Assembly (NCBI RefSeq): GCF_000167195.1
Contig: NZ_AADV02000024.1
Span: 1 to 33,195 of the forward strand
Source of the DNA: Crocosphaera watsonii WH 8501
GTDB lineage: Bacteria; Cyanobacteriota; Cyanobacteriia; Cyanobacteriales; Microcystaceae
Direction of reading: 5' to 3'
DNA: 33,195 nucleotides
Under the pieces are notes generated by a model that saw only the letters and a list, made by a program, of their open reading frames with translations, searched no databases and was not told the DNA's origin. Both the position numbers and the translations under genes were made by a program. Shown here piece after piece: positions 4,377 to 30,336 of the stretch (positions within the stretch are counted from its first letter, which is position 1; each line of letters starts with the position of its first letter).

Positions 4377-4805
4377 TCAATTATCTGATGTACAAGATTT
4401 TTCCTCATGACTACGGGGACAAGTTTCTAAGTCTTCAGTCACGGGTTTATCTGGGTTTAAACCGATCCAAGCATCAATTTTTTCAGGATCAAAACCTACC
4501 CGAAAAACCCCATCGACATGAATTAAAGGGCGACGAATTAATAAGGGATCAGCTATCATTAATTCTAAGGCTTGTTCCTCGTTTAAATTATCAGGAATAA
4601 CCTCACCAGACTTAATTCTCGGCGCACTAGGATTAAACCATAAATTAATAGGCAAATCACCAAAAAAGAGACGCAGATTTTCAGGTTTCCAAGGTTCAGT
4701 TAAGAGACTTTTTTCTTCTAAATTGTGACCAGCTGCTAATAATAAATTTTTCTGTTTTGTGTTATTACGGCAACCAGGTTTCTCGTAAAAGGTAACGTTA
4801 GCCAT
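4377..4805 (-). CDS. ArsC/Spx-like nitrogenase-associated protein
   Basis: The 142-residue product matches the ArsC/Spx-like nitrogenase-associated family: MANVTFYEKPGCRNN at the N terminus with the redox-type cysteine at position 12, LLLAAGH, then the ArsC-fold signature LLIRRPLIHVDGVFRVGFD. Members have a thioredoxin-like fold and occur beside nif genes; the biochemical role is not established. The TAA stop of the upstream ferredoxin-like gene overlaps this ATG, so the two are translationally coupled. The C-terminal tail (about residues 115-142) is charged and has two extra cysteines. It is the last gene of the minus-strand unit, ahead of the terminator hairpin at 4283-4321. Family assignment is good; function is unknown. 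Confidence 0.8.
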   Translation of the reverse strand: MANVTFYEKPGCRNNTKQKNLLLAAGHNLEEKSLLTEPWKPENLRLFFGDLPINLWFNPSAPRIKSGEVIPDNLNEEQALELMIADPLLIRRPLIHVDGVFRVGFDPEKIDAWIGLNPDKPVTEDLETCPRSHEEKSCTSDN

Positions 4806-5398
4806 TATTTTTTCCCAGAGGTAATATAGTGTTCTTCTAGTAATCCTGCAATGTTTTTAGGATTGGGTTTACTATGTTTAGATCTCCCCGGCATTAAGAT
4901 CATATTAGGGGCTTTTCCACAGCGTTTTTGACAGCCAGTTTTCTGGATGGTTACGTGCTTTTCTAACCCTAAATTAGAGATAGTTTTTTCGAGGACACCA
5001 TATAGTTTTTTACCTCCTCTTTTGGCACAATCAGACTTATTACAGATCAGGATTTTACCTTTTTTTGCACAAGCTTTACCTTTACCCATAGCATTAGTCT
5101 CCTCTTGTGGATTACATTTTACGTCACAACTGAGCCTGTCAATTTCATAAGCTTTCAATTTTAACTTAGTAAATTTTTCCTTCTTAAACTCCTGTTCTCC
5201 TGTTATTGAAATCCAATCTCCAGGTAATAAGTTTAAAAAGTGGGTATCCTGTAAACTTTTATCAATTTTAATCCTTAATTCTCTTTCTCCAACTGCTAGA
5301 ATTAAAGATTTTGCTTGACCATTAGACTTATAAATAAAGCCCACAAACTTGCCTTGTAATTGAAAGGGAATTATTTCACTAGAATGAATTGAACTCAT
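4805..5398 (-). CDS. [2Fe-2S] thioredoxin-like ferredoxin domain protein
   Basis: The C-terminal half (about residues 108-190) is a thioredoxin-like [2Fe-2S] ferredoxin: ILICNKSDCAKRGG provides the first two cysteines with nine-residue-type spacing and TGCQKRCGKAPNMIL the second pair. The N-terminal 100 residues form a separate domain of mixed beta character ending near DVKCNPQEE, not recognised with certainty. Proteins of this kind are found in cyanobacterial nif clusters as possible electron carriers. The gene ends on the start codon of the ArsC-like gene. ATG 5398 is preceded by CTTAAGGAAAGCTGTC on the coding strand, giving an AAGGAAAG-type ribosome site. A 363-bp gap rich in short tandem repeats separates it from nifT upstream. 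Confidence 0.75.
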   Translation of the reverse strand: MSSIHSSEIIPFQLQGKFVGFIYKSNGQAKSLILAVGERELRIKIDKSLQDTHFLNLLPGDWISITGEQEFKKEKFTKLKLKAYEIDRLSCDVKCNPQEETNAMGKGKACAKKGKILICNKSDCAKRGGKKLYGVLEKTISNLGLEKHVTIQKTGCQKRCGKAPNMILMPGRSKHSKPNPKNIAGLLEEHYITSGKK

Positions 5399-5424
5399 GA
5401 CAGCTTTCCTTAAAGGATGGAGGA

Positions 5425-5745
5425 AGTATCGGTTACCAGTTATCAGTTATCGGTTGTTGCTCACTGCTCACTGTTGACTGAGAAAATTACCATTTTTTTT
5501 GAAGTGATGAGAGATTTTGTCAATTAAAATGACAATTAAGTTCATCTAAGGTTTTGCTAGATTACTCAACCCAAAGTCAAATTATAAATTCTCTCAATAA
5601 GTAAGAAAAATGGTGTAAAAAACTTGAAGAAAGGGGCTTAATTCAGTTATCAGTTACCAGTTATCAGTTACCAGTTGTTGCTCACTGTTAACCGCTCACT
5701 GTTCACTGTTCACTGTTCAATGTTTAATGTTTAATTAAGCCCGAT
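5425..5745. repeat. Heptad short tandem repeats between nifT and the ferredoxin-like gene
   Basis: Two blocks (about 5430-5480 and 5644-5740) contain tandem 7-mers: CAGTTAT/CAGTTAC repeated five times at 5644-5678, then CTGTTCA-like heptads to about 5738. Both blocks share the run CAGTT..TTGCTCACTG. These are cyanobacterial STRR-type heptads. The intervening 5481-5643 is AT-rich and holds no gene that I can see. Confidence 0.7.
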
Positions 5746-5761
5746 AAAAACTGGAGGAAGA

Positions 5762-5962
5762 CTAAAGACGTTTTGCCTCTAAGGTTTGGGGCAAAGTGGT
5801 TTCATCGGTAAGCTCAGGAAATTTTAATTTCCAACCGTTGGCTAAGGTTAAAACTTTGCCGTTTCCTTCAACGGTTTGTTCAACAACCAATTCTTCTAAA
5901 TCTTTTTTGGGAACATAAACAGATAAATTTCCCTCATCGGTGTTACTTAGCATAACTTTCAT
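5762..5962 (-). CDS. nifT: NifT/FixU family protein
   Basis: The 66-residue product MKVMLSNTDEGNLSVYVPKKDLEE followed by a LANGWKLKFPEL motif is typical of NifT/FixU, a small beta-rich protein of unknown biochemical role found in many nif clusters. I place the start at 5962, not at an upstream in-frame codon (5995), because a GGAG box lies about seven bases before it and the family begins MKVM. It follows nifZ by 61 bases on the minus strand, within the nifP-nifV-nifZ unit. The length is normal for the family. Mutants in other diazotrophs show little phenotype, so its function is open. Confidence 0.88.
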   Translation of the reverse strand: MKVMLSNTDEGNLSVYVPKKDLEELVVEQTVEGNGKVLTLANGWKLKFPELTDETTLPQTLEAKRL

Positions 5963-6023
5963 AGCATAACTCCTGAAATAGTTGACAATTGACAATTGAT
6001 GGTTGATAGTTTTTAACTATTAA

Positions 6024-6365
6024 CTAAACCTGAGACTCTTGTAGAGAAGGTTCGACGGTTTCCACGATTTCTTCATCATCGGTATCATCAATAAAAGGTT
6101 CATCCGCAGGAACCAATTCTTTACGACGACAGCCAACAACATAACCATTTTCGAGGAAATGAACGGCATAAATGTAATAACTTTGCAAATAGGTGCCAAT
6201 GCCAACAACATAACCCACATCGCCTTTTTTGGCTAAGGTTTCGCCTATTTCTTTCCCAGGAAATGTCCCATCATTGCGAATCATTTTCCGCAGACGAACC
6301 TTTTGTTCCATTTCAAAAACCGGTGGATCATTGAGTTCAATTTCACCTGCACTATACAATCCCAT
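6024..6365 (-). CDS. nifZ: NifZ, nitrogenase P-cluster maturation protein
   Basis: The 113-residue product begins MGLYSAGEIELNDPPVFE and contains the NifZ core: VRLRKMIRNDGTFPG, GDVGYVVGIGTYLQ and YYIYAVHFLENGYVVGCRRKEL. NifZ helps form the second P-cluster of the MoFe protein in Azotobacter. The start at 6365 is chosen over 6407 because GGAG lies about eight bases upstream and the family starts here; it overlaps the end of nifV by 14 bases, indicating coupled translation. The C-terminal 25 residues are acidic (FIDDTDDEEIVE). Length is in the usual range for the cyanobacterial family. Confidence 0.9.
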   Translation of the reverse strand: MGLYSAGEIELNDPPVFEMEQKVRLRKMIRNDGTFPGKEIGETLAKKGDVGYVVGIGTYLQSYYIYAVHFLENGYVVGCRRKELVPADEPFIDDTDDEEIVETVEPSLQESQV

Positions 6366-7485
6366 GAGACATACTCCTATTAGATACAACATAAAGTAAC
6401 TCTTCAACGGTTAGACTGCGTTTCATTTGCACCGATAAATGGCGCACGGAGTCTAACACCACTTGGGACTCTTCATGGTTTAAACGAATACCATGTTGAC
6501 TCAATACATTGGTCAATAAATGTCGTCCCGAATGTTTGCCCACCACTAAACGGCGTTTCCAACCCACCTCATCGGGGGAAAAGGGTTCGTAGGTTTGGGG
6601 GTTTTCTAAGACACCGTGGGCGTGAATACCCGACTCGTGGGCAAAAACATTGTCCCCGACGATCGCCTTCCAAGGGGGAAGGGCAATACCAGAGGCAGCT
6701 ATCACCTGTTGAGATAATTCCCGTAGGCGAGAGGTTTCTATGGCTAAATCAACCTGATAGAGTCGTTTGAGAGCCATAATCATCTCTTCTAAGGCCGCAT
6801 TACCAGCTCTTTCTCCCAAGCCGTTAACGGTGGTATTAACCGCCGTTGCCCCTGCTTGCAACCCGGCTAAGGCGTTAGCAGTAGCTAAACCAAAGTCATT
6901 GTGGGTGTGCATTTCAATGGGAATCTTCAGGCACTCAACCAATTTTCCCACTTTTTGCGCCGTGGTTAAAGGCTCAAGAATGCCCACCGTATCGCAAAAA
7001 CGGAAACGTGAAGCACCTAAAGACTGAGCAAACTGAGCTACTTCGAGTAAAAAGGATTCATCCGCCCTCGAAGCGTCTTCAGCCCCCACAGAAACAAATA
7101 AATCCTGATCTAAAGCAAAATTCAGACTATCTTTTAAGCGTTGCCAAACAAGATTAGTTTTTCCTTTAAATTTTGCCTTAATTTGAATTTCAGAAACAGG
7201 GACAGAGATATGAACCCTTTTTAAGCCACAGGCAATGGAGGCTTCTATATCGGAACGGACGGCACGGTTCCAGCCTAAAAGCTTGGCCTTTAAACCTTTT
7301 TGGACAATGGTGGTGATGGCTTGGGCTTCTGAGCCTCCCATAGCAGGGATACCCACTTCCAATTCAGGAATACCCATACTATCCATCATCGAAGCGATCG
7401 CTATTTTTTCGGCGGCACTGAAAACAATACCAGCAGCTTGCTCCCCGTCCCGTAGGGTTGTATCATTGATATGAATATTTGTCAA
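6352..7485 (-). CDS. nifV: NifV, homocitrate synthase
   Basis: The 377-residue product is a homocitrate synthase, condensing acetyl-CoA with 2-oxoglutarate to give R-homocitrate, the organic ligand of FeMo-co. It shows the DRE-TIM barrel signatures: INDTTLRDGEQAAG near the N terminus, the metal-binding HTHNDFGLATANAL, the glycine-rich NTTVNGLGERAGN, and GDNVFAHESGIHAHG. The start is a TTG at 7485, supported by a strong GAGGAGG ribosome site eight bases upstream. There is a DUF2949 gene just ahead and nifZ overlaps its 3' end. I see no sign of damage. Distinction from isopropylmalate synthase rests on the shorter length, lack of the LeuA regulatory domain and nif context. Confidence 0.93.
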   Translation of the reverse strand: MTNIHINDTTLRDGEQAAGIVFSAAEKIAIASMMDSMGIPELEVGIPAMGGSEAQAITTIVQKGLKAKLLGWNRAVRSDIEASIACGLKRVHISVPVSEIQIKAKFKGKTNLVWQRLKDSLNFALDQDLFVSVGAEDASRADESFLLEVAQFAQSLGASRFRFCDTVGILEPLTTAQKVGKLVECLKIPIEMHTHNDFGLATANALAGLQAGATAVNTTVNGLGERAGNAALEEMIMALKRLYQVDLAIETSRLRELSQQVIAASGIALPPWKAIVGDNVFAHESGIHAHGVLENPQTYEPFSPDEVGWKRRLVVGKHSGRHLLTNVLSQHGIRLNHEESQVVLDSVRHLSVQMKRSLTVEELLYVVSNRSMSHGIV

Positions 7486-9956: not shown

Positions 9957-11429
9957 ATGTTACAATCTACTGGTCTCATTAACCCTAACGCATCTACGGC
10001 TACAAAAGCGGCTCCTAAGGGGAACTCATTCATTCCCAATGCTAAAGGAGGTTGTGCTTGTCCTTCAAGTGGAGATAGCACACAGACTATAGATGCAAGG
10101 ATTCAAGAAAGAATAGCCAAACACCCTTGTTATAGTGAAGATGCTCATCATCACTACGCACGGATGCACGTTGCTGTTGCCCCTGCTTGTAACATTCAAT
10201 GCAACTATTGTAATCGTAAATATGACTGTGCTAACGAAAGTCGGCCAGGGGTGGTAAGTGAAGTATTAACCCCGGAAGAAGCGGCCCACAAAGCGTTAGT
10301 CATTGCAGGAAAAATTCCCCAAATGACGGTGTTAGGTATTGCAGGTCCTGGAGATCCCTTAGCTAACCCCAAACAAACATTTCGCACCTTTGAATTAGTA
10401 GCAGAACAAGCACCAGATATCAAACTCTGCTTATCCAGTAACGGGTTGATGTTACCCGAATATGTAGACCGCATCAAAGAATTGAACATCGATCACGTTA
10501 CTCTAACCATTAATATGATCGACCCAGAAATAGGAGAGAAAATTTATCCTTGGGTTCGGTATAATCGGAAACGTTATAAAGGAATAGAAGGCGTTAAAAT
10601 ACTTCATGAGAAACAAATGGAGTCCTTAGATGCCCTCAAAGAAGCGGACGTACTTTGCAAAGTCAACTCCGTAATGATCCCCGGCATTAACGATGAACAC
10701 CTAGCAGAAGTTAACCAAGTAATTCGTTCTAAAGGTGCATTCTTGCACAACATTATGCCCTTAATTTCTGCCCCTGAACACGGAACTCACTTCGGTTTAA
10801 CCGGACAAAGAGGACCCACCCCCAAAGAGCTAAAAGCTTTACAGGATAAGTGTTCTGGCAACATGAAAATGATGCGTCACTGCCGTCAATGTCGTGCTGA
10901 TGCTGTGGGTTTACTAGGAGAAGATCGTTCTCAAGAGTTTACCAAAGACAAATTCTTAGAAATGACTCCTGAATACGATCAGGCTAAACGTCAAGAAGTT
11001 CATGCAGGTATCGAAAAATTCAACGCCGAACTCAAAGCTGCCAAAGCTCTAAAACAGGCAGAAAAAGAGGCTAACGCACGGAAAATATTAGTTGCAGTAG
11101 CCACCAAAGGTAACCGTCTAGTTAACCAGCATTTCGGTCACGCTAAAGAATTCCAAATCTTTGAAGTAGATGGAACTGAGGTTAAATTTGTCGCTCACCG
11201 CAAAGTAGATCACTACTGTCAAAGTGGTTACGGTGAAGAAGCAACCCTGGACAACATTATTAAATCCATCTCCGACTGTAAAGGAGTTCTCGCCGCCAAA
11301 ATCGGTCCTTGTCCCCAAGAAGAACTACGGAAAGCTGGCTTAGAGCCTTACGAAGCCTACGACATCATCGATAACGTGGCCATTAACTTCTACAAAGATT
11401 ATATGCAGAAAGAAGCATTAGGAGTTTAA
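9957..11429 (+). CDS. nifB: NifB, FeMo-cofactor core (NifB-co) radical SAM synthase
   Basis: NifB fuses Fe-S clusters, inserts carbide and makes the 8Fe core of FeMo-co. The 490-residue product has the radical-SAM cysteines at C78, C82 and C85 (CNIQCNYC), the SAM-binding [12 protein letters not shown], and conserved [13 protein letters not shown] and [18 protein letters not shown] segments that bind the substrate clusters. A NifX-like C-terminal domain spans about 376-490 ([21 protein letters not shown]). The N terminus has a CACP motif around residue 33, normal for cyanobacterial NifB. Start ATG 9957 lacks a strong ribosome site. It opens the plus-strand nif unit; the next ORF starts three bases after its stop. 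All expected residues are intact. Confidence 0.95.
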
Positions 11430-11432
11430 TGT

Positions 11433-11633
11433 ATGCTCGATACCCTTAGCTATCGTCCTCAAAGTTCCCGAGTTTCCTCAAAAGGAAGTACCTCAACCCC
11501 CGTCATCAACCCCCCGAGTTCAACCCCAACGGAAACGGAAAACAACTGTAATACTTGTGTTGATGACTATTCTATTCCTCCCTGTACAGGGTTTTCCAAA
11601 GACTACAGTTGTTTTCCCGACCTCAACGATTAA
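11433..11633 (+). CDS. 66-aa four-cysteine protein in the usual fdxN position
   Basis: The frame starts three bases after the nifB stop and encodes 66 residues. The first 37 are Ser/Thr/Pro-rich; the end carries four cysteines (C39, C42, C51, C60) in the pattern CxxC-x8-C-x8-C, ending in an acidic PDLND. This is not a bacterial 2[4Fe-4S] ferredoxin of the FdxN type, which has about 110 residues and usually stands between nifB and nifS in cyanobacteria. The tight spacing to nifB suggests translational coupling and a true gene. Metal or Fe-S binding is inferred only from cysteine spacing. It could also be a remnant of a rearranged gene. Confidence 0.55.
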   Translation: MLDTLSYRPQSSRVSSKGSTSTPVINPPSSTPTETENNCNTCVDDYSIPPCTGFSKDYSCFPDLND

Positions 11634-11723
11634 TCTAGTACCGCTTTAAATCTATCCTAACGGGCTTAATCTGATTAATTAAGCCCCGACTGACCCCCAA
11701 ACCCTGACTTCTGGTAAAAACTG

Positions 11724-13133
11724 ATGACAGACTGTATTTATCTAGACAATAATGCAACCACTAAAATAGACGAAGAAGTAATAGGCGCAATGATGCCCTA
11801 TCTCACCATCTATTATGGTAACCCCTCCAGTATGCACAGCTTTGGGGGACAGGTAGCAAAAGCGGTTCAAAAGGCCAGGGAACAAGTGGCGGCCTTACTC
11901 GGGGCTGAACATTCAGAAATTATTTTTACCAGTTGCGGTACAGAAGGAGATAACGCAGCTATCTGTGCAGCCTTAACCGCTCAACCGGATAAACATCATA
12001 TTATTACTACAGAAGTCGAACACTCAGCGGTTTTAAATTTTTGCAAACATTTAGAAAAACAAGGTTATAGCGTTACTTATCTGGGAGTTGATAGTCAGGG
12101 AAGATTGGATCTCGGTGAAGTACAAGCAGCCTTAACCGGTAACACCGCTCTGGTGACCATGATGTACGCTAATAACGAGACAGGGGTTATTTTTCCTGTG
12201 GAAGAAGTAGGAAAACTGGCCAAAGAATATGGAGCCTTATTCCATGTAGATGCGGTGCAAGCAGTGGGCAAAGTACCCATGGATATGAGTAAGAGCAGCA
12301 TCGATCTCTTGACCCTATCTGGTCATAAACTTCATGCTCCCAAAGGTGTCGGTGCTTTATATGCACGTAAAGGAATCAATTTTCCTGCATTTATGATTGG
12401 GGGACATCAAGAAAGAGGCCGTCGGGGAGGAACCGAAAATGTCCCTGGTATTATTGCATTAGGAAAAGCTTGTGAGTTAGCACAATCTCACTTAGAAAAT
12501 CTCTCCCACGAAAGACAGTTAAGAGATTATTTAGAAACCAGCCTTTTAACCTTAATTAGCGATACCGTTGTAAATGGAACTACAGAAGAAAGATTAGCAA
12601 ATACAACCAATATTGCTTTTAAATATGTAGAAGGAGAAGGTATTTTATCGTCCCTGAATCAATACGGTATTTGTGCCTCAGCAGGTTCAGCTTGTACCTC
12701 CGGTTCCATGGAACCCTCCCATGTTTTAAAAGCCATGGGGCTGCCTAACAGTGTACTACAGGGTTCTATTCGGTTTAGTCTTTCTCGTTATACAACCCAA
12801 GAAGAGATTAACCGTGTCATTGAGATTGTACCCGATATTATCAGCCATTTGCGCTCAATCACTCCCAGAATAGAAGATGAGACAACTTCATCACCAACAA
12901 AAGAACAAGAAAAAGCAAACTTAATTCAACAAATCTTAGAAGAAGAAGTTAAACCCTTCCTAGCTCAAGATGGGGGAGACATAGACTTATACGATATCGA
13001 AGGGGATCTAGTGAAAGTAGTTCTCAAAGGAGCTTGTGATGCTTGTCCCAGTAGTACCGCCACCTTAAAACTGGCCATCGAAGCCAGATTAAAGGATCGG
13101 GTTGACCCAGAATTGACCGTAATTGCAGTGTAA
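11724..13133 (+). CDS. nifS: NifS cysteine desulfurase fused to NifU C-terminal domain
   Basis: Residues 1 to about 377 are a complete NifS: YLDNNATTKIDEE at the N terminus, PLP-binding lysine K202 in SGHKLHAPKG, and active-site cysteine C324 in SAGSACTSGSMEPSH. NifS releases sulfur from cysteine for Fe-S assembly. Instead of ending near residue 395-400, the frame passes through a short linker (about 378-395, rich in E, T, S) into a complete NifU C-terminal domain with the CDACPSS motif (C438, C441), which binds a transferable [4Fe-4S] cluster. The IscU-like scaffold and BFD-type [2Fe-2S] domains of NifU are absent, and no separate nifU occurs in the window. An in-frame deletion of about 220 codons joining nifS and nifU explains this; an assembly join is the alternative. 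Confidence 0.88.
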   Translation: MTDCIYLDNNATTKIDEEVIGAMMPYLTIYYGNPSSMHSFGGQVAKAVQKAREQVAALLGAEHSEIIFTSCGTEGDNAAICAALTAQPDKHHIITTEVEHSAVLNFCKHLEKQGYSVTYLGVDSQGRLDLGEVQAALTGNTALVTMMYANNETGVIFPVEEVGKLAKEYGALFHVDAVQAVGKVPMDMSKSSIDLLTLSGHKLHAPKGVGALYARKGINFPAFMIGGHQERGRRGGTENVPGIIALGKACELAQSHLENLSHERQLRDYLETSLLTLISDTVVNGTTEERLANTTNIAFKYVEGEGILSSLNQYGICASAGSACTSGSMEPSHVLKAMGLPNSVLQGSIRFSLSRYTTQEEINRVIEIVPDIISHLRSITPRIEDETTSSPTKEQEKANLIQQILEEEVKPFLAQDGGDIDLYDIEGDLVKVVLKGACDACPSSTATLKLAIEARLKDRVDPELTVIAV

Positions 13134-14453
<1,320 letters not shown>

Positions 14454-24095: not shown

Positions 24096-24449
24096 ATGAC
24101 TGTTACTCTTACTGAAAAAGCTTCTTCAAAACTCCAGAATTTCCTAGAAGGAAAAGCCCTTACTGGTATCCGTGTTGGGGTTAAAACCGGTGGCTGTAAT
24201 GGCTACGAATACGCCTTAAATTTAGTTAAGGAAGCTAACAACGAAGATGTTTGCTTTGAACAAGATAATGTCCTCATCTATGTTGATCCTAATAGCGTGT
24301 CTTTATTAGATGGTGTGGTCATTGATTTTGTGGATAGTTTAACCCAAGGCGGTTTCACCTTTACTAACCCCAATGCAACACAGACTTGTGGCTGCGGTAA
24401 ATCTTTCGCTACAGCAAACTGCGGTGGCCAAGCCACAGGATGTGGCTAA
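24096..24449 (+). CDS. hesB: HesB/IscA-type Fe-S carrier
   Basis: The 117-residue A-type carrier has the three conserved cysteine positions: one in TGGCNGYEYAL and two in the CGCGKSF motif near the C terminus. Such proteins deliver Fe-S clusters or iron to targets; the nif version is called HesB or IscA-nif. The tail after CGCG is extended (ANCGGQATGCG) with two more cysteines, common in cyanobacterial nif copies. It follows hesA by 49 bases and precedes the ferredoxin gene. With the NifU scaffold domains missing in this window, this carrier may be more important here; that is inference. Confidence 0.92.
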   Translation: MTVTLTEKASSKLQNFLEGKALTGIRVGVKTGGCNGYEYALNLVKEANNEDVCFEQDNVLIYVDPNSVSLLDGVVIDFVDSLTQGGFTFTNPNATQTCGCGKSFATANCGGQATGCG

Positions 24450-25970: not shown

Positions 25971-28026
25971 ATGAAGTGTAATCAATGTCCTGATAGTTGT
26001 CAAAATAAATCCCAAACTTCTAACAGTTTTTGGCAGAATTTGTGGCGAAAGCCTCTCAAGATGAAATCTCCAGAAGTGATTTCTGAAGGAACCATTGCCT
26101 TAGTGGGTTCTCCCAACGTGGGTAAGAGTCTTCTCTTTAATGTTTTAACCGGGGGATATACCACGGTTTCTAACTATCCTGGAACCACTGTAGAAGCCTC
26201 TCGTAATTATATCAAAATTGCGAGTAAAACTATCACGATCATTGATACACCAGGTATGTATTCTCTAATTCCAATGACAGAAGAAGAACGATTTTCTCGG
26301 GAGTTATTATTCCGAGAACCTTTAGATTTAGTTGTTCATGTCATTGATGCCAAAAGTCTTAGTCGAATGTTAAATTTAACATTTCAACTAATGGAAACTC
26401 AGGTTCCTATTCTAGTCGCTGTCAACATGATTGATGAAGCAGAAAAATTAGGAATATGGGTAAACGAAAAGCAATTAGAAGCATCCTTAGGTATTCCTGT
26501 TGTCACTTTATCTGCTGCTCAACAACGAGGCATCAAAAGTTTAACCGCTAAGATGGCTAACTATGTCCACATTCCTGCGCTATCCTACAGCTATTGAAGA
26601 AGGAATCACTAAAATAGAGTGCCTTCTAGAGAGCGATCATGACGTAGTGAAAGCAGCCATCGAACCATTAGTATCCAAACGTTCTTTAGCTCTTTTATTA
26701 CTACAAAAAGATCCCTTATTATGGCAAAAGGTTCGTCAAAAAGAACCCAAATTTGAAGCTATTGAAATGGTAGTAGAATCCGTTCAAGCTCAATTTAGTG
26801 ATCCTCTGGTTTTAGTCATAGCTAAAACTCGTCATCACACTGCCAAAAAAATCGAAGAATTAGCCATTGTAAAAATTAGGAAAAAGTCGACGGAGAGCGA
26901 AGAATTTTTTCATCGCGTAACTGTTAATCCTATTACGGGTTTTCCCATCCTTTTTGTGGTTATTTATTTGGGCATCTATAAGTTTGTCGGTTGCTTTGGT
27001 TCTGGAGTTTTAGTTAATTACTTCCAATCTGTTTTTACACAGCAAATTAACCCTTTAATTGACGGGATAGCTACTCGGTTATTGCCCTGGACAATTTTGC
27101 AGGATTTAGTGGCTAATGAGCAGGGAATTTTGACTTTAGGAATGCGTTATGTTATTACCATTATTTTACCTATTACTACTACATTCTTTTTGATTTTTTC
27201 TATTCTGGAAGAAAGTGGTTATTTACCCAGAATTTCTCTGCTAATCGACCATTTATTCAAAATGATTGGTTTATCCGGTCGTTCCATCATTCCTTTAATT
27301 TTAGGTTTAAATTGTAGCAGTGCTGGTTCATTAGTAACCCGCACTATGGAAAGTAAACGAGAACGTTTTATTATCTCTTTACTCTTAGCTTTAGCTATTC
27401 CATGTTCAGCACAACTGGGAATTTTTATTGGACTACTTTCCCAAAATTTTATGGCTTTGATAGTTTGGGCTATTTGTATTGCTTTTATTTTCGCTATTAT
27501 TGGTTCCTTAACCGCCAAAGCATTGCCGGGAAGTTGGTCTTATTTTTACATGGAAATTCCCCCCTTACGTTTGCCTCATCTTCGCTCTACTCTAACGAAA
27601 ACATATAATCGAATTCGTTGGTATTTAAGTGAGGTTATTCCTTTGTTTCTTCTGGGTTCCGTTATTATTTGGTTGGGTAATTTAATTGGGTTACTGCCTT
27701 GGTTAGTCCATAGTTTAGAACCAATTATGCTCAAATTAGAACTGCCAAAACAAGCCTCAAGTATGTTTATTTATGGCTTTTTTCGGCGAGACTATGGAGC
27801 AGCCAGAATGTTCGATCTACATCACGCTGGATTGTTAGAAGGTAGACAATTAGTGGTTTCTGCTGTGACATTAACTCTATTTATTCCTTGCTTATCTCAG
27901 TTTAGGTTTATGCTCAGGGAACGGGGACTAAAAACAACTATTACTCTAAGTAGTTTAGTTATTATTTTTGCTTTCTCTATGGGCTATATATTGAACAAGA
28001 TTTTACTCGTTTTAGAGGTTATTTAA
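25971..28026 (+). pseudogene. feoB: FeoB ferrous iron transporter, frame broken after the GTPase domain
   Basis: FeoB imports Fe(II) with an N-terminal G domain and a membrane channel. The first part (25971-26597) has a cysteine-rich start (MKCNQCPDSC), G1 GSPNVGKS, G3 DTPG, G4 NMID and G5-like LSAAQQRG, then stops at 26595-26597. The second part (from about 26563, one base forward in frame) continues as RYPTAIEEGITKIE into the membrane domain with several hydrophobic helices and the conserved GLNCSSAGSLVTRTMESKRER core. Together they make a normal-length FeoB of about 680 residues. The shift lies near 26575-26597: one base too many or two too few. It may be a real mutation, a sequencing error or a +1 frameshift. 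An intact NtcA promoter and downstream feoA argue for recent damage or error. Confidence 0.8.
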
Positions 28027-28401: not shown

Positions 28402-30336
28402 ATGACTCTTGATTTTTCTCCGATTTGGATATCATTAAAAACCGCAGCTTTGGCAACTACGATCGCCTTTTTTCTGGGGGCGATCGCCGCTCGGACTATG
28501 TTTAAATATCGGGGAAAAGTCAAAGGCTTAATCGATGGTATTTTAACCGCCCCTTTGGTACTTCCGCCGACGGTTGTAGGCTTTTTTCTCTTATTATTAC
28601 TAGGAAAATACGGACCAATTGGCAAATTTTTAAGATTATTTGATATTACCGTAATATTTACCTGGTACGCTGCCGTTATTGCCGCCACAGTTGTAGCCTT
28701 CCCCTTGATGTACAAAACCGCATTGGGAGCATTTCAGCAGATCGATACCAACCTTTTAGCTTCTGCTAGAACCCTTGGAGCCACAGAATGGCAGGTATTT
28801 CGGCGTATTTTACTGCCTTTAGCGAGACCTGGCCTTATTTCAGGAGTATTATTAGCTTTTGCTCGTGCTTTAGGGGAATTTGGGGCTACCTTGATGTTAG
28901 CAGGGAGTATTCCAGGCAAAACTCAAACTGTCCCCATTGCCATCTTTTTCGCTGCCGAAAGCGGTGACATGACAGAGGCAATGTTATGGGTAAGCGTTAT
29001 GTTAGTTTTATCCTTAAGCATTGTGGTTGGGGTCAACTATTGGAACGATCATCGTCCCCATCAACGGAGAGCAAAACAGTCCAAACAAGGCCATCTAACC
29101 CTGATAGATGAAACCTTACTCCCCTGGGATAACCCTGTCGCCCCCTTAACCTGGGACTCAACCCGTACAAATGTTTTACCTAGTCCTATTGAATTAATTG
29201 TTGATATACAGAAAAAATTACCCGGATTTACTTTAGATGTTTCTTTTTCCAGTAATCAATTACCATTGGGGCTATTGGGAGGTTCAGGAGCAGGGAAAAG
29301 CTTTATTTTACGCTGTATTGCTGGTTTGGAAACCCCCGATGAAGGTTGTATTATCCTCAATGGTCGGGTTTTATTTGATTCTCGTAGAGGGATAAATGTC
29401 CCAATCCGCGATCGCCGTGTGGGTTTCTTATTCCAAAACTATGCCCTGTTTCCCCATCTCACTGTCGCTCAAAATATTGCTTTTGGCCTACCCAAAACCC
29501 TCTCACCCCGTGCCATCCGTCAACGGGTAGAAAAACAACTGCTTGCGGTACAGTTACACGGGTTAGGCGATCGCTATCCTCAAGAATTATCAGGGGGACA
29601 ACAGCAAAGGGTGGCCTTAGCGAGAGCTTTAGCTAGTGAGCCAGATATTTTGCTATTAGACGAGCCATTTTCCGCCCTAGACACCTATTTACGGGATCAA
29701 TTAAAAAAACTCCTCAGACTCAGTTTAACTCACTTTCCAGGGGCAACCTTATTTGTCTCCCATAACCTAGAAGAAGCCTATCGTATATGTCCCAACCTCT
29801 TGATTTTAGACGAAGGAGAAATCATTGCCCAAGGGCCCAAACAAGACATATTTGATGCGCCCCAATATTTTCGAGTCGCCCAACTCACCGGATGTAAGAA
29901 CTTTTCTCGCGCCGTCATTCAGTCGGAGAATACTATCACTGCTCTTGACTGGGGATGTACCCTAAGAGTGAACGAGCCTATCCCTGATGGTTTAGCTCAC
30001 GTAGGTATACGTGCCCATCACCTCATTTTTACGGGGCTAAAAGAGCAACAAACTCGCTCTCCTGAGAACATTTTTCCTGCTTGGCTGACTACCATCAGCG
30101 AAACCCAACACAGAATGACATTGTACCTCAAGTTAAATTCTTCCCCTAGTAGTCCCTTCGACTATCACCTACAAGTTGAAGTGTTCAAAGACACCTGGAA
30201 TAGGTTGCAATACTTGCCTCAACCTTGGCAAATTCAACTTTACCCCTCACGCCTTCTGTTACTACAAAATAAAAATAGTTCTCTGTCCTTTGAATATCAC
30301 CCCAGTCATCTTTCAACTATTACTAAAGATGATTAG
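28402..30336 (+). CDS. modBC: ModBC, fused molybdate ABC transporter permease/ATPase
   Basis: One 644-residue protein joins ModB (about 1-215: membrane helices, and the permease loop LGATEWQVFRRILLPLARPG) to ModC (about 265-480: Walker A GGSGAGKS near 293, signature LSGGQQQRVALARAL near 396, Walker B ILLLDEPFSALD) and a C-terminal region in the place of the TOBE domain (about 495-644). It imports molybdate for FeMo-co. Fused modBC is known from other cyanobacteria. The binding protein ModA is not in the window. ATG 28402 is preceded by TAGGAAGTATT, a moderate ribosome site. The gene is intact and ends the metal-supply part of the island. Confidence 0.92.
   Translation: MTLDFSPIWISLKTAALATTIAFFLGAIAARTMFKYRGKVKGLIDGILTAPLVLPPTVVGFFLLLLLGKYGPIGKFLRLFDITVIFTWYAAVIAATVVAFPLMYKTALGAFQQIDTNLLASARTLGATEWQVFRRILLPLARPGLISGVLLAFARALGEFGATLMLAGSIPGKTQTVPIAIFFAAESGDMTEAMLWVSVMLVLSLSIVVGVNYWNDHRPHQRRAKQSKQGHLTLIDETLLPWDNPVAPLTWDSTRTNVLPSPIELIVDIQKKLPGFTLDVSFSSNQLPLGLLGGSGAGKSFILRCIAGLETPDEGCIILNGRVLFDSRRGINVPIRDRRVGFLFQNYALFPHLTVAQNIAFGLPKTLSPRAIRQRVEKQLLAVQLHGLGDRYPQELSGGQQQRVALARALASEPDILLLDEPFSALDTYLRDQLKKLLRLSLTHFPGATLFVSHNLEEAYRICPNLLILDEGEIIAQGPKQDIFDAPQYFRVAQLTGCKNFSRAVIQSENTITALDWGCTLRVNEPIPDGLAHVGIRAHHLIFTGLKEQQTRSPENIFPAWLTTISETQHRMTLYLKLNSSPSSPFDYHLQVEVFKDTWNRLQYLPQPWQIQLYPSRLLLLQNKNSSLSFEYHPSHLSTITKDD

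Follow-up and report, generated by a model that had tools for sequence, protein, structure and literature searches.

An in-frame fusion of NifS with the C-terminal domain of NifU in the nitrogen fixation gene cluster of Crocosphaera watsonii WH 8501

The fused gene and its neighbours

The nitrogen fixation cluster of Crocosphaera watsonii WH 8501 carries, between nifB and nifH, one unbroken open reading frame (ORF) on the forward strand (11724-13133), which encodes a protein of 469 residues. Positions are those of the window, that is, the whole stretch of DNA analysed herein (33,195 nucleotides, contig NZ_AADV02000024.1). Its features, with the evidence for each, are:

9957..11429 (+): nifB, upstream neighbour (TIGR01290, 667.8 bits)
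11433..11633 (+): small cysteine-rich ORF of 66 aa, CNTCVDDYSIPPCTGFSKDYSC, between nifB and nifS (similar ORFs directly 3' of nifB in eight of nine relatives)
11724..12866 (+): NifS cysteine desulfurase core, residues 1-381, with K202 and C324 (TIGR03402, Aminotran_5, alignment A2)
12867..12923 (+): remodelled NifS tail and linker, residues 382-400, RIEDETTSSPTKEQEKANL (tail divergence; EQEKA codons match the nifS 3' end)
12921..12923 (+): likeliest deletion junction, the Leu400 codon, counterpart of nifS ..EQEKATL and nifU ..ITLIQQ (junction DNA comparison)
12924..13130 (+): NifU C-terminal (Nfu-type) domain, CxxC C438/C441 (PF01106, E 5.7e-23; whole-genome match G000:C300:12924-13124)
13563..14453 (+): nifH, downstream neighbour (TIGR01287, 453.4 bits)
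After nifH: nifD, nifK, nifE and nifN (TIGR01282, TIGR01286, TIGR01283 and TIGR01285, all above cut-off)
24096..24449 (+): HesB-type A-carrier, candidate alternative Fe-S carrier (PF01521, E 3.4e-23)

The NifS model TIGR03402 matches residues 5-381 of the protein with 606.6 bits against a cut-off of 530.75, covering model positions 1-378 of 379, and the Aminotran_5 family matches the same part at E 6.3e-95. K202 and C324, which we take to be the PLP lysine and the persulfide cysteine of NifS, are unchanged in 20 of 20 sequences of alignment A2, made up of the fusion protein and 19 relatives. The frame continues into residues 401-466, which match 66 of the 67 positions of the Pfam NifU family, the Nfu-type C-terminal domain (PF01106, 81.3 bits against a cut-off of 27), with the CxxC motif intact at C438 and C441. 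Because both domains are full length and lie in the same frame, chance is of no concern, and the joining of NifS to a complete NifU C-terminal domain is confirmed as a real feature. A sequence-only reading of this DNA had described a full NifS running into that domain in one frame, with key residues at K202, C324, C438 and C441; the TIGR03402 and PF01106 matches and the uninterrupted ORF bear out the architecture, and all four residues stand exactly at those positions.

Other parts of NifU were sought in the same frame. Neither NifU_N (PF01592) nor the BFD domain (PF04324) has a match inside the fusion ORF at E 0.001. The model for NifU proper (TIGR02000) reaches 64.4 bits against a cut-off of 273.3 and covers only positions 206-290 of its 290, and the NfuA model (TIGR03341) reaches 35.4 bits against 269.35.

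Among the neighbouring genes, the 66-aa cysteine-rich ORF (11433..11633) matches no Pfam family at E 0.001, and a counterpart was not seen in one of the nine relatives compared, G018. Farther downstream, FeoB occupies two overlapping ORFs in different frames (25971-28026, +; the G domain, then the membrane part), through a natural split or else a frameshift. One ORF at 28402-30336 (+) combines an ABC ATPase domain with a binding-protein-dependent permease domain and is probably a fusion of the type that we take to be ModBC.

A ferredoxin-like ORF of 116-129 aa lies between nifB and nifS in seven of the nine relatives and is taken as fdxN by its position and cysteine pattern. An intact ORF of this kind is absent between nifB and nifS in WH 8501 (11634-11723), in its closest relative by identity, G002, and in G028. 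If the ORF is fdxN and G002 is the sister of WH 8501, a placement made by identity and not from a tree, the loss of fdxN would have preceded the putative nifU deletion in the WH 8501 line; on the same assumptions, fdxN and nifU would have been lost separately in the line of G028. In the portion of PMC2246100 covered, the spheroid body of Rhopalodia gibba is described as having an fdxN pseudogene together with an N-terminally truncated nifU.

Origin and distribution of the fusion

The locus was compared in detail with that of nine relatives, G028 included. In eight of these cyanobacterial clusters (G001, G002, G004, G006, G007, G016, G010 and G018) nifB lies 5' of nifS as in WH 8501, and the encoded proteins are orthologous to the fused parts, with an identity of 75-83% for NifS and 61-77% for the NifU C-terminal domain (CTD). 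They differ in having separate NifS and NifU proteins, the latter with NifU_N, whereas WH 8501 has one protein without scaffold and BFD domains. In these eight, nifS (400-401 aa) is followed 51-168 nt further on by nifU (292-297 aa); in the ninth relative, G028, nifU is decayed. Since nifS and nifU are separate genes in the compared relatives, one deletion of about 0.8 kb would explain the fusion, its size being 797 nt on the coordinates of G002. The loss of about 220 nifU codons that had been proposed from the sequence is supported by the eight relatives with intact, separate nifS and nifU.

The junction DNA indicates where such a deletion would have fallen. The 18 nt just before the NifU sequence are identical to the 3' end of G002 nifS at 17 of 18 positions, against 11 of 18 for the G002 nifU linker. 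When the comparison is carried through the Leu400 codon, 20 of 21 nt match the nifS 3' end of G002 and 11 of 21 its nifU linker, and across six relatives the same 21 nt give 16-20 matches to the former versus 8-12 to the latter. Beyond the Leu400 codon the sequence is that of NifU (LIQQ...), and at the junction point G002 has a 6-nt near match between its nifS and nifU (ACCTTA vs ACCCTA). The deletion probably removed the spacer along with about 223 codons of nifU, but only the last two codons and the stop of nifS, nearly all of NifS being kept. A junction a few codons earlier, with a linker partly derived from nifU, is possible, both segments being short, and is less well supported.

The NifS-NifU fusion is rare among the genomes searched and unremarked in the literature passages covered. 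With the fusion protein as query, 84 genomes in a phylum sample of 386 cyanobacterial genomes gave a match at E 1e-140 or better, and residues 1-469 were covered only in WH 8501. This sample includes 60 nifH-bearing genomes (E 1e-110 or better), and in 58 of them NifU_N is matched strongly (at E 1e-46 or better; lists compared by eye); those without are WH 8501, which has none, and G028, which has a 25-position remnant (E 8.8e-5). At the family level, NifS is matched at E 1e-150 or better in 24 of 50 genomes, 22 of the 24 having NifU_N at E 1e-47 or better, and apart from that of WH 8501 no NifS-NifU fusion was found among the 24. A pattern-based scan with one genome per species yielded 39 loci, none with a tail domain on NifS; the NifS frame, counted from match start to stop, extends to at most 415 codons, one locus (L106) being cut at its 5' end. 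An apparent second fusion in Desulfovibrionaceae (L077, match over residues 3-466) was rejected, as it consists of two ORFs, nifU (298 aa, 4404-5300) and then nifS (5297-6514).

No statement of a natural NifS-NifU fusion was found in the text passages of the Crocosphaera and NifU literature covered, and the C. waterburyi paper makes no mention of nifU, nifS or fdxN (PMC11630315). The legend of Figure 4 in PMC2246100 gives a WH 8501 NifU entry, ZP_00516385.1, which may be the fusion. A NifQ-NifU N-terminal domain fusion, described for some deltaproteobacteria in the part of PMC11605450 covered, is alike in that one NifU domain is fused to a nitrogenase-maturation partner; it carries the scaffold domain, whereas the WH 8501 fusion joins the carrier domain to NifS.

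Sequence constraint, expression and Fe-S assembly genes

Pairwise dN/dS of the CTD is 0.12-0.23 against seven relatives, dS being saturated against the eighth (G018), and that of the NifS core is 0.08-0.14 against eight relatives. On the WH 8501 branch, the 69 CTD codons give dN 0.076 and dS 0.377, and the branch ratio is 0.20 versus 0.12 in G002, over these 69 codons only. The values suggest that the CTD is constrained, somewhat more loosely than in G002, which is supportive and not decisive because some of the branch may be older than the fusion. Private changes in the NifS core number 35 in WH 8501 versus 8 in G002, and those in five other nif genes together 28 versus 9 (nifE over 256 codons only). 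NifS-specific acceleration was rejected as proof of remodelling, since the ratio in NifS (35:8) does not differ significantly from that in the other nif genes (28:9; p 0.59).

At the end of NifS, five relatives share FSSDDATWLQ over the ten aligned tail codons, and G016 has FNSDDASWLQ there. Against G002, 13.1 of 24.3 nonsynonymous sites in these codons differ in WH 8501 (pN 0.54), which has a 2-codon insertion in addition; the G002 tail itself gives pN 0.00 against G001 or G004 and 0.08 against G016 (2.0 of 25.7). The 12 residues preceding EQEKA resemble no tail among six relatives closely. As described in the passages of PMC2854127 covered, the contacts of E. coli IscU with IscS lie at helix 8 (309-316), the C-terminal helix 379-391, Glu347 and the end of helix 11, and a truncated IscS without residues 376-404 fails to bind IscU. 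The NifS proteins were aligned to E. coli IscS, with a footprint that omits the end of helix 11, for which the source numbers no residues. Among sites invariant in six relatives, WH 8501 shows changes at 6 of 17 within this IscU footprint versus 36 of 311 elsewhere (one-sided p 0.013, post hoc); with the tail left out, the figures are 2 of 9 versus 31 of 299 (p 0.25). Enrichment in the footprint was rejected as a signal, being weak, post hoc and driven by the tail. The NifS tail, which aligns in part to the IscU-contacting helix of IscS, has been rewritten, in a manner that fits scaffold loss, and the core is without a clear signal. Two changes, R219N and R221P, correspond in the alignment to IscS R223 and R225, which the same source, as far as covered, gives as CyaY/IscX binding residues (PMC2854127); changes at positions that may bind CyaY/IscX serve here as a lead only.

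The WH 8501 assembly consists of 6,238,068 bases in 323 contigs and is 99.95% complete. The NifU_N family (PF01592), which also takes in IscU and SufU, has no match in any of the 323 contigs at E 0.001; a control search with the same profile was positive in 12 of 14 genomes, including E. coli and B. subtilis. For the BFD [2Fe-2S] domain (PF04324), the 323-contig genome likewise gives no match at E 0.001, with a control search positive in 7 of 14 genomes. By the PF01592 search, a complete nifU elsewhere in the genome, for which the sequence-only reading had advised looking, is absent from this assembly. Its suggestion that the strain uses SufU or IscU instead finds no support in this assembly, PF01592 being without a match although the E. 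coli and B. subtilis controls were positive. The genome contains three Nfu domains (in the fusion ORF, an 80-aa protein and a 286-aa protein), three A-type carriers, one of them at 24096-24449 on the nif contig, and two SUFBD_core proteins. With HesB/A-type carriers and SufBD-type proteins in the genome, another carrier, as further suggested, may therefore serve. A candidate full NifU at L002 (G000:C322, open frame 291) was rejected: the ORF there spans 286 aa and contains an Nfu domain, and the genome-wide NifU_N search is empty at this locus. To the eye, the C-terminal part of this 286-aa protein, beyond the Nfu domain, is Rieske-like. A table in PMC8896826, taken with its column heading out of view, lists C. 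watsonii WH 8501 with SufBD only, and Allochromatium vinosum and Rhodobacter sphaeroides with 'SufBD, IscU (NifU)'; the entry for WH 8501 may rest on the same draft genome.

Evidence on expression comes from a preprint on the diel proteome of WH 8501. In the sections covered, the product of Cwat3817 was seen by mass spectrometry all day, at a higher level at night, and is reported as NifU, a 'molecular scaffold'; SufB, SufC and SufD were likewise detected (PMC12265555). The locus order given there is Cwat3815 nifB, Cwat3817, Cwat3818 nifH, and it is by this gene order and locus numbering that Cwat3817 is identified as the fusion ORF. These sections are without the word NifS, one figure legend abbreviating 'S', and the timing of NifU is inconsistent between the text, which assigns it to the night cluster (cluster 1), and Table 2, which gives 'no cluster' (PMC12265555).

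Cluster supply to nitrogenase

Given the intact fusion, an assembly with no NifU_N or BFD match, and the presence of SufB/D-type, Nfu and A-type proteins, we consider it rather probable that WH 8501 expresses a protein in which a desulfurase is joined to a [4Fe-4S] carrier that either loads itself or is supplied by SUF, and that this fusion arose by the deletion of about 0.8 kb. This deletion, in an ancestor of the strain, would have joined nifS to the 3' end of nifU at the cost of the BFD [2Fe-2S] domain and the U-type scaffold. The dimer geometry, cluster binding, cluster source and cluster targets that we infer are these. The NifS dimer would form a persulfide at C324, a linker of about 20 residues would tether the Nfu-type domain, and one [4Fe-4S] cluster would be held between the CxxC of this domain and the CxxC of another subunit. 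The cluster could be handed over by SufBCD or assembled on the tethered domain from sulfur made alongside, loading by SufBCD being slightly favoured over self-loading, and it would then be passed to NifH and NifB.

The proposed route can be set beside known systems. NifU, as described in the part of PMC11605450 covered, holds transient [4Fe-4S] clusters in its N- and C-terminal domains, receives sulfur from NifS and delivers to NifH and NifB. In Paenibacillus polymyxa WLY78, according to the passages of PMC8038749 covered, nitrogenase is supplied by a NifS-like protein, the Nfu-type YutI and SufCDB without NifU. The two diazotrophs are alike in combining a NifS-like desulfurase, an Nfu-type CxxC protein and SufBCD with no NifU; they differ in that P. 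polymyxa has separate proteins and possesses SufU (PMC8038749), whereas in WH 8501 the desulfurase and Nfu domain form one chain and a U-type protein was not found in the assembly. A stronger proposal, in which the fusion is a scaffold-free unit that builds [4Fe-4S] clusters de novo on the tethered CxxC with persulfide from the same dimer, wholly replacing NifU in an aerobic free-living diazotroph, appears doubtful to us.

The Nfu tail could instead be a tolerated remnant, NifU being dispensable as SufBCD, HesB/A-type carriers and the 80-aa Nfu supply nitrogenase, and NifS serving only as sulfur donor; we regard this, the main rival reading, as unlikely. The SUFBD, A-type and Nfu genes are all present in WH 8501. 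G028, which has nifH and NifS and which is presumably a diatom spheroid-body-type endosymbiont, also speaks for it: at its locus (L070), NifU_N is cut to 25 positions, and the CTD joined to it lacks the second cysteine and is broken across reading frames. In the portions of the papers covered, nifU truncation in the diatom endosymbiont is described as losing a gene that is redundant when the cell grows diazotrophically (PMC2246100), and stand-alone Nfu is reported to be indispensable in cyanobacteria (PMC7058544). The diatom spheroid bodies (PMC2246100) and G028 are like WH 8501 in being same-family diazotrophs that have lost the NifU scaffold domain and an intact fdxN. G028 differs, however, in having no fusion and a broken CTD, the fate of an unneeded nifU, whereas in WH 8501 the tail is intact, both cysteines are kept and dN/dS is far below 1; moreover, a strong NifU_N is retained in 58 of the 60 nifH-bearing cyanobacterial genomes.

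We think it very improbable that the fusion is the product of a collapsed or chimeric assembly, the strain really having nifS with its usual stop and a complete nifU, and about 0.8 kb having been lost in assembly. The genome is a draft in 323 contigs, and this draft also underlies the locus numbering and probably both the PMC8896826 entry and the proteome database, so that these are not independent. Nevertheless, the near match at the junction (about 6 nt) is far too short for repeat collapse, a stray NifU_N is found in no contig, the reading frame passes unbroken through the junction, and the 12 residues ahead of EQEKA, with the 2-codon insertion, closely match the tail of none of six relatives. 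With its tail diverged and carrying this insertion, the joint thus looks changed since it formed, unlike a joint made by cloning or assembly. That an assembly gap or a missing replicon conceals a U-type scaffold is hardly credible, as only the draft status speaks for it, against an assembly completeness of 99.95%, a nifU directly after nifS in nine relatives, and a nifS-nifH interval that is fully sequenced in WH 8501.

NifU is regarded as the central scaffold on which nitrogenase clusters are built, and efforts to move nitrogen fixation into plants make use of it. WH 8501 seems to make nitrogenase without this textbook scaffold. The literature may need correcting in this respect, the 'NifU scaffold' in the part of PMC12265555 covered being, by locus order, a desulfurase-carrier fusion without a scaffold. 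A free-living marine diazotroph with nifHDKEN and no scaffold domain would be a natural experiment on the true requirements of nitrogenase; it points to NifS-Nfu plus SUF as a possible shorter list of parts, and makes the need for the NifU scaffold directly testable.
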